The notes under the pieces: generated by a model
What the model saw: the letters and a program-made list of their open reading frames with translations, nothing else
Told to the model about the DNA's origin: nothing
Databases searched by the model: none
NCBI RefSeq assembly: GCF_014844075.1
Contig: NZ_CP062165.1
Coordinates: 1,798,001 to 1,862,000, forward strand
Reading direction: 5' to 3'
DNA length: 64,000 bases
Source of the DNA: Paenibacillus sp. JNUCC-31
GTDB lineage: Bacteria; Bacillota; Bacilli; Paenibacillales; Paenibacillaceae
Part shown: piece after piece, positions 42,978-45,900 of the stretch
Position numbering within the stretch: the stretch's first letter is position 1
Layout: each line of letters starts with the position of its first letter
Position numbers and translations under genes: made by a program

Positions 42978-45900
42978 GGATAAGCCCTCGACCGATTAGT
43001 ACTGGTCAGCTCCATGCATTGCTGCACTTCCACCCCCAGCCTATCTACCTCGTCGTCTTCAAGGGGTCTTACATACTGGGAAATCTCATCTTGAGGGGGG
43101 CTTCACGCTTAGATGCTTTCAGCGCTTATCCCTTCCGTACATAGCTACCCAGCGGTGCTCCTGGCGGAACAACTGGTACACCAGCGGTACGTCCATCCCG
43201 GTCCTCTCGTACTAAGGACAGCTCCTCTCAAATTTCCTACGCCCACGACAGATAGGGACCGAACTGTCTCACGACGTTCTGAACCCAGCTCGCGTACCGC
43301 TTTAATGGGCGAACAGCCCAACCCTTGGGACCTACTTCAGCCCCAGGATGCGATGAGCCGACATCGAGGTGCCAAACCTCCCCGTCGATGTGGACTCTTG
43401 GGGGAGATAAGCCTGTTATCCCCAGGGTAGCTTTTATCCGTTGAGCGATGGCCCTTCCATGCGGTACCACCGGATCACTAAGCCCGACTTTCGTCCCTGC
43501 TCGACTTGTAGGTCTCGCAGTCAAGCTCCCTTATGCCTTTGCACTCTTCGAATGATTTCCAACCATTCTGAGGGAACCTTTGGGCGCCTCCGTTACTCTT
43601 TAGGAGGCGACCGCCCCAGTCAAACTGCCCACCTGACACTGTCCCCGCACCGGATTACGGTACCAGGTTAGAACCTAGATACGATCAGGGTGGTATCCCA
43701 ACGGTGCCTCCACGCAAGCTGGCGCTCACGTTTCAAAGGCTCCCACCTATCCTGTACAGATCGTACCCAAATTCAATATCAAGCTGCAGTAAAGCTCCAT
43801 GGGGTCTTTCCGTCTTGTCGCGGGTAACCTGCATCTTCACAGGTATTAAAATTTCACCGGATCTCTCGTTGAGACAGCGCCCAAGTCGTTACGCCATTCG
43901 TGCGGGTCAGAATTTACCTGACAAGGAATTTCGCTACCTTAGGACCGTTATAGTTACGGCCGCCGTTTACTGGGGCTTCGGTTCACAGCTTCGGATTGCT
44001 CCTAACCGCTCCCCTTAACCTTCCAGCACCGGGCAGGCGTCAGCCCGTATACTTCGCCTTACGGCTTCGCACAGACCTGTGTTTTTGCTAAACAGTCGCT
44101 TGGGCCTTTTCACTGCGGCCCCCTCGTGCTATTCACACTACCGGGGCACCCCTTCTCCCGAAGTTACGGGGTCATTTTGCCGAGTTCCTTAACGAGAGTT
44201 CTTCCGCCGCGCCTTAGAATTCTCTTCTCGCCTACCTGTGTCGGTTTGCGGTACGGGCACCATCACCTGGCTAGAGGCTTTTCTTGGCAGTGTGAGATCA
44301 TGACCTTCGCTACTATAATTTTCGCTCCCCATCACAGCCCAGCCTTACGATGTGCGGATTTGCCTACACATCAGCCTCACTGCTTAGACGGACATCCATC
44401 AGTCCGCGTCACTACCCTGCTGCGTCCCCCCATTGCTCATAACGGCTTACGGTGGTACAGGAATTTCGACCTGTTGTCCTTCGACTACGCCTTTCGGCCT
44501 CGCCTTAGGTCCCGACTTACCCTGAGCGGACGAGCCTTCCTCAGGAACCCTTAGGCTTTCGGCGGATCAGATTCTCACTGATCTTTTCGTTACTCATACC
44601 GGCATTCTCACTTGTATAATGTCCAGCGCTCCTTACGGTACACCTTCAACCCTTATACAACGCTCCCCTACCCCTGGATCGACTTCACTCCAGCTTCGAA
44701 GTCCTGTGTTTATCCCCTGAGAAGCATTTGGTCATCCAAGATATCATCTCTTGTCAGACAAAAATGTCCTTGTGGTAAACACCGCCTCAAAGAAGCAGTG
44801 AAGTCGATCCAAGCCATAGCTTCGGTGGTGTGTTTAGCCCCGTTACATTTTCGGCGCAGAGTCACTCGACCAGTGAGCTATTACGCACTCTTTCAATGGT
44901 GGCTGCTTCTAAGCCAACATCCTGGTTGTCTGTGCAACTCCACATCCTTTCCCACTTAACACACACTTGGGGACCTTAGCTGATGGTCTGGGCTGTTTCC
45001 CTTTTGACAATGGATCTTAGCACTCACTGTCTGACTCCCGGAAGTAAGTCTATGGCATTCGGAGTTTGACTGAGCTTGGTAACCCTTGCGGGCCCCGCAC
45101 CCAATCAGTGCTCTACCTCCACGACTCTGTTTTCCGAGGCTAGCCCTAAAGCTATTTCGGGGAGAACCAGCTATCTCCGAGTTCGATTGGAATTTCTCCG
45201 CTACCCCCACCTCATCCCCGCACTTTTCAACGTGCGTGGGTTCGGGCCTCCAGTGCGTGTTACCGCACCTTCACCCTGGACAGGGGTAGATCACCCGGTT
45301 TCGGGTCTACGTCCACGTACTATGTCGCCCTATTCAGACTCGCTTTCGCTGCGGCTCCGGCTCTTCACCTTAACCTTGCACGGGAACGTAACTCGCCGGT
45401 TCATTCTACAAAAGGCACGCCATCACCCCTAAAACGGGCTCTGACTTTTTGTAAGCACACGGTTTCAGGTTCTATTTCACTCCCCTTCCGGGGTGCTTTT
45501 CACCTTTCCCTCACGGTACTGCTTCACTATCGGTCGCTAGGAAGTATTTAGCCTTGGCAGATGGTCCTGCCGGATTCATACGGGGTTTCACGTGCCCCGC
45601 ACTACTCGGGATCCGTCTCGGAGGGAACCAACTTTCAACTACAGGGCTTTTACCTTCTTTGGCGGGCCTTTCCAGACCTCTTCGTTTAACCGGCTCCTTT
45701 GTAACTCCATGTGAGACGTCCCACAACCCCAGAGAGCAAGCTCTCTGGTTTGGGCTTCTCCGCGTTCGCTCGCCGCTACTGACGGAATCACTATTGTTTT
45801 CTCTTCCTCAGGGTACTTAGATGTTTCAGTTCCCCTGGTATGCCTCTACACAACCTATGTATTCAGTTGTGAGTAACTGGAAATTACCCCAGCTGGGTTT

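Follow-up and report, generated by a model that had tools for sequence, protein, structure and literature searches.

Helix 45 of 23S rRNA in some operons of Paenibacillus sp. JNUCC-31 carries a probable intervening sequence with structurally conserved homologues across Bacilli

A 64,000-nucleotide stretch of the Paenibacillus sp. JNUCC-31 genome (contig NZ_CP062165.1, positions 1,798,001 to 1,862,000; hereafter the window, to which bare coordinates refer) contains a 23S rRNA gene with a 133-nt block at helix 45. From comparison of operons, folding and covariation among homologues, we infer that it represents an intervening sequence (IVS) which RNase III removes, with split and intact 23S rRNA coexisting in the cell, and assign this reading a probability of about 0.82. 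Related inserts occur at the same site in a minority of Paenibacillaceae genomes and in further families of Bacilli.

The insert-bearing 23S gene occupies positions 42976-46024 on the minus strand (full match to the Rfam LSU_rRNA_bacteria model, 2947.4 bits in cmscan). A Rfam scan placed the 16S rRNA (46364-47915) and 5S rRNA (42779-42895) of the same operon on the same strand, and nine tRNA genes follow the 5S. The genome (G000) consists of one contig of 7.55 Mb and has 11 23S genes, which, aligned to each other, fall into seven with the insert (3047-3049 nt, the window copy being 3049 nt) and four without it (2923-2925 nt). Plain copies read CTTG-ATGCTTGCAT-CAGGGG, and in the seven others 133 nt replace those 10, which form the tip of helix 45, for a net gain of 123 nt. 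In the window, the insert thus delimited by the four insert-free copies lies at 44677-44809 (minus strand), corresponding to positions 1216-1348 of the 23S gene. Beyond single-base indels and substitutions, it is the sole difference among the 11 copies. The seven inserts differ from one another at two positions, and a search of the genome with the insert matched seven places, all inside 23S genes. These comparisons agree with the first-pass annotation, made from the window alone, which had put the block at 44675-44811 (at most 2 nt off on each side), had described an excess of about 120 nt at a single point (other length differences among the 11 copies being single-base indels), had correctly located it in helix 45 and had suspected that other operons may be without it. 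One insert-free copy (L016, G000:C1:3763100-3766024) has six single-base indels relative to most copies, one of them common to L019, and the lowest model score among the 11; it may be decaying or mis-sequenced. Elsewhere in the window, a ribosomal protein L21 leader was detected at 59495-59579 (minus strand), barely over the gathering score.

Folding of the insert predicts stacked stems which, from the base, comprise 17 bp, 8 bp and 7 bp with small interruptions, followed by an apical part (all minus strand). The outer stem, the presumed RNase III substrate, pairs 44797-44813 (5′ arm, the base of which belongs to helix 45) with 44673-44689 (3′ arm), as indicated by both fold and covariation. 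It consists of 15 consecutive Watson-Crick pairs, then U-G, then C-G. In the second stem, 44785-44792 pairs with 44694-44701 over 8 bp (alignment pairs 28-34/137-143), and in the window fold the element UAAACAC (44706-44712) pairs with 44776-44782. The apical core, ACAUU...GYC...GRC..AAAUG, spans 44725-44767 and holds several near-invariant letters, the very tip (44742-44748) being variable. A 176-nt stretch folded at -69.8 kcal/mol as compared to a mean of -45 (sd 3.74) for shuffled sequences (z -6.63), and none of 200 shuffles folded as well. On the rRNA strand, the block contains no ORF, as had been noted from the letters; each frame has a stop, and the longest open run before a stop is 32 codons. 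IVSs of the Leptospira type carry an S23p ORF, and no such S23 protein ORF (Coxiella/Leptospira type) was found, no frame being open through the block on that strand. One frame on the opposite strand is open across all 44 codons of the block, which is unremarkable. A Rfam scan of the insert returned no family except the LSU rRNA model (28.6 bits, E 2.4e-07), with nothing below E 1.8, and no match to a covariance model of a self-splicing intron, riboswitch or ribozyme.

The likeness to a classical helix-45 IVS, proposed in the first reading of the window, holds for the anatomy of the insert: it lies at a recognised site with the loop of the helix replaced, its two ends form a long terminal stem (17 bp, z -6.63, covariation), and its occurrence is sporadic across operons and species (7/11 operons, 9/75 genomes of the genus and 41/394 of the family). 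In the available text of earlier reports, recognised IVS sites are helices 9, 25 or 45, the loop of the helix being replaced (PMC4990558), and RNase III excises the IVSs that stand in place of a small loop in helix 45 and helices like it (PMC4990558, PMC8708148). Helix-45 IVSs of Salmonella, Yersinia, Campylobacter and Proteus/Providencia are likewise described as stem-loops substituting for the loop of this helix, small ones having no ORF, and as present in only some operons or isolates (PMC4990558, PMC2672173); the IVS lengths described range from 83 to 200 nt (PMC4990558, PMC2672173, PMC8708148). By description, the present inserts are set apart from the proteobacterial ones by their hosts, which are Bacilli, and by a sequence and apical core kept over several families. 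Thermoanaerobacter tengcongensis belongs to the Firmicutes. Some of its 23S copies carry inserts of 22, 34 and 62 nt, which are likewise partial in distribution but shorter than the window insert; according to the sections of that report available, its authors found no homologues, and two of the 23S copies diverge by 4% elsewhere (PMC2672173). The Coxiella IVS shares the helix and a long terminal stem (28 bp), but is 428 nt long with an S23p ORF, as compared to 133 nt and no ORF on its strand in the window (PMC4990558, available text).

In the pathway that we infer, from transcription of the window copy through cutting and fragment sizes to the mode of spread and loss, the insert would be transcribed within pre-23S RNA and fold as a long hairpin atop helix 45. 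RNase III would most likely cut the outer stem on both strands, releasing the hairpin and leaving a 23S in two pieces (about 1.2 and 1.7 kb) that the ribosome fold keeps joined. Since only seven of the 11 operons carry the insert, ribosomes with split 23S would exist beside others with intact 23S. The gene for an RNase III domain protein lies at 6.118 Mb in G000, next to a gene whose product we take to be FabF. The presence of an RNase III gene counts against the hairpin being retained as an uncut rRNA expansion segment on the 50S surface in part of the ribosomes, which we consider unlikely; so does the outer stem itself, since stems of this kind, 17 bp long and continued by stacked stems, are standard substrates of RNase III. 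A retained hairpin would fit the conserved apical core and strong covariation described below, and in the available text of one report, IVSs left uncut in an rnc mutant had no detected consequence for the ribosome (PMC8708148); however, like-built inserts are cut in the cases described (PMC4990558, PMC8708148, available text). Excision by RNase III, the preferred reading, is further consistent with accounts from other bacteria in which inserts of such anatomy are cut by this enzyme and leave working ribosomes (PMC4990558, PMC8708148, PMC2672173, in the sections available).

A search of 75 genomes of the genus found the insert in 9 (that of the window included) at 93-100% identity. All nine carriers belong to the 32 assemblies with five contigs or fewer, and the 43 more fragmented assemblies yielded none (Fisher p 0.0002). 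Draft assemblies of the genus thus seem to hide the insert, presumably because short reads collapse rRNA operons. A scan of 394 Paenibacillaceae genomes for exact anchors separated by 101-161 nt gave 42 matches in 6 of 19 genera, and a reversed control pattern gave none. One match (G137) was rejected as spurious because it runs across a normal helix 45 and an irregularity of the contig, leaving homologous inserts at the same 23S site in 41 of 394 genomes, a count that includes G083 and G097 though their 3′ half looks garbled. The initial view that such inserts are unusual in Bacillales is correct in that they are a minority feature, but these counts for genus and family show that they are not rare. 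In draft Cohnella genomes, the stem is broken by A or G runs in its 3′ arm (L043 of G083, L045 of G097, L073 and L076); the garbled inserts of two such genomes look like consensus errors from collapsed operons. Named matches in a similar scan were Paenibacillus faecalis, two Paenibacillus sp., Cohnella sp. AR92, C. rhizosphaerae and C. ginsengisoli, and in five of these six the insert letters are identical to those of genomes in the family scan. An exact 22-nt piece of the insert, present in family-scan genomes, was not matched in the collection of named genomes, which may omit near relatives. Among 17 carrier genomes with both forms counted, insert-bearing and plain 23S genes coexist in 15. 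In G175, the insert (L068) has the same letters as that of Paenibacillus faecalis (L072), and its flank, about 42% off the nearest relative and with 245 masked bases, is probably misassembled.

Homologues extend beyond the family. At the level of the order, 1 of 126 genomes outside Paenibacillaceae was positive (G453, of another family), and the stretch listed for it matches that of Paenibacillus sp. Soil766 (L075). In the Soil766 insert, the outer stem is of the window type and the apical part of the Cohnella type, as though the two had recombined. A class-level search of 299 genomes with a covariance model built in this analysis (R1) yielded seven positives, namely four Paenibacillaceae and one genome in each of three other families (G536, G537 and G548). 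Matches in these three (E 7e-13 to 2e-20) lie within helix 45 of the 23S gene, at about 1166-1204. As the 3′ anchor of these three is different (TGGTAGGGG), the exact pattern would miss them, and the family and order counts are therefore lower bounds.

Covariation was evaluated in an alignment (A1) of 43 rows from 40 genomes, with G083, G097, G137 and extra copies per genome left out. Standard pairs make up 96.6% of the 1246 cells in its 29 pairs, and 18 of the 29 exhibit changes on both sides. The covariation score was 0.359 as compared to 0.141 (sd 0.009) in shuffled alignments and was reached by none of 500 shuffles, a test that related rows inflate; slid structures scored at most 0.100, the A1 structure being favoured over them by its derivation from A1 itself. 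Further pair types, a weak measure, numbered 39 versus 35.4 in shuffles (reached by 21 of 500). Another alignment, with 18 rows and the three distant families included, contains 37 pairs, 21 of them with double-sided changes. Judged from these alignments, the family is a real RNA structure, held by compensatory change over at least five families.

Within the outer stem, five of the seven pairs of CUUCACU/AGUGAAG are invariant over the 43 rows and two vary, in 1 and 2 rows respectively, and of the six pairs outside this element, four display double-sided changes in 7 to 21 rows of A1. In the apical part, the letters of ACAUU, AAAUG and then UAAAC are near-invariant. Of 46 rows, 37 retain UAAAC; so do 16 of the 24 for which an ad hoc pattern found no window-type partner. 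A loose core motif found in 38 of 46 rows was composed after viewing the rows and was not used as evidence. Apical conservation exceeds what a passive spacer would need, which counts against the IVS reading, though common descent explains part of the identity. Near-invariant apical letters over five families, while the outer stem covaries, together with the persistence of UAAAC in rows without that partner, would be consistent with a functional RNA housed in rRNA, in which the released hairpin or the precursor core would serve as a protein-binding site or a stable small RNA, the core being kept by selection for that role. Cutting is compatible with such a role. We regard a functional RNA of this kind as improbable, given that the insert was not found in most searched genomes or in most operons of several carriers, that no Rfam family other than the 23S rRNA model matches, and that common descent accounts for part of the identity.

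The location of insert-bearing operons was compared with that of dnaA, which in G000 lies at 3.406 Mb. With a cut of 450 kb set after the data were seen (in a gap between 410 and 650 kb), and with related species that are not independent, 1 of 20 insert-bearing operons as compared to 37 of 71 plain ones fell within this distance in eight mapped genomes of the window genus (g1). None of 20000 within-genome shuffles was as extreme (7 of 20000 when G000 was omitted), and the one exception is the G000 operon at +89 kb from dnaA. Two g3 genomes had 1 of 10 insert-bearing and 3 of 5 plain operons within 450 kb, an uncertain trend (1174 of 20000 shuffles), and three g8 genomes had 3 of 9 and 6 of 20, with the bias absent. 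Pooling all 13 genomes gave 5 of 39 versus 46 of 96 (0 of 20000). An origin-distal bias as a general rule was rejected on account of g8. Left out of this map were G022 (contigs unordered), G123 (two contigs), one plain G003 copy on a second contig, and G246 and G076 (no plain copy found); lengths of the G121 and G150 genomes were entered as rounded values, and the exact anchors, which recovered 11 of 11 23S copies in G000, may miss copies. The dnaA gene of G005 (G005:C1:1060067-1061373) is in two pieces in different frames, probably through a sequencing frameshift. Two possible causes of the bias are selection against split 23S in the operons of highest dosage and frequent gene conversion among clustered origin-proximal operons. 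A more far-reaching and improbable proposal sees in the insert a functional RNA module conserved in Bacilli and housed in rRNA, with an apical core recognised by a cell factor. Its origin-distal confinement in the window genus would then let growth rate set the ratio of split to intact ribosomes, because the dosage of origin-proximal operons rises in fast growth.

Distances between inserts correlate with distances between their 23S flanks (Mantel r 0.71, 0 of 2000 permutations) in the 39 of 43 rows with fewer than 500 masked bases, G175 with its odd flank retained. Within genera the result is mixed, with r 0.69 in g8 (0 of 2000, 17 rows), 0.60 in g1 (69 of 2000, 9 rows) and -0.16 in g3 (1355 of 2000, 6 rows), and some nearest neighbours disagree with the host (e.g., G078 of g2 pairs with G329 of g16). 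This pattern suggests that the insert, apart from some exceptions, mostly travels with the host lineage. Two g8 genomes each have two inserts, which differ by 12.8% and 9.2% as compared to 0.5% in about 2.3 kb of flanking 23S; these inserts have escaped the homogenising seen in the rest of the gene. Matching insert types differ by 3.5% between the two species. The two diverged types (L083-L086, in G240 and G241) lie at different operons in the two species. Neighbouring genes were also compared between G000 and the 14 insert-bearing operons in the other eight carriers of the genus: 10 share neighbours with insert-bearing places of G000, 3 only mutually and 1 (G022) with none, and none of the 14 shares neighbours with the four insert-free places of G000. 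Locus-by-locus inheritance as independent evidence was rejected by a shuffle test on the eight mapped genomes, in which the 20 shared pairs compare with 13.6 expected when all loci were shuffled (1445 of 50000) and 21.5 when shuffling was among origin-distal loci only (37940 of 50000).

The history that we propose is one homologous IVS family across Bacilli, which would be mostly inherited with the rRNA of the host, often lost, and exchanged between operons by gene conversion. A selfish mobile element, i.e., a MITE-like hairpin inserting itself into helix 45, would account for terminal inverted repeats and a patchy distribution, but is very unlikely: all seven places in G000 are in 23S genes, the rRNA strand holds no ORF, the loop is replaced with no target duplication seen, blastn of the insert against plasmids and phages gave no match at E 0.01, and a 19-nt piece had no exact match in viral contigs. 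An assembly or sequencing artefact, as the two garbled draft Cohnella inserts and the spurious G137 match might suggest, is scarcely credible, given that the genome, a single contig, has seven copies and that homologues bearing compensatory changes occur in numerous independent assemblies.

A helix-45 IVS of 23S rRNA, present in some operons only, is of a well-known kind. A search of the open literature, with subscription journals outside its scope, found no paper on IVSs in Paenibacillus or Cohnella, and within that literature neither IVSs in Paenibacillaceae nor a family of homologous IVSs sharing a conserved core across Bacilli, as the alignments suggest, was found described. IVSs are usually described as sporadic, cut out and lost; the family in Bacilli is instead conserved in structure over at least five families. 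In practice, the broken-up draft assemblies of the genus show none of the inserts, and a split 23S, if cutting occurs, would upset the RNA quality scores of carrier strains. The coexistence of both forms makes any function of rRNA fragmentation testable in readily grown Gram-positive bacteria, as well as how IVSs persist against gene conversion.
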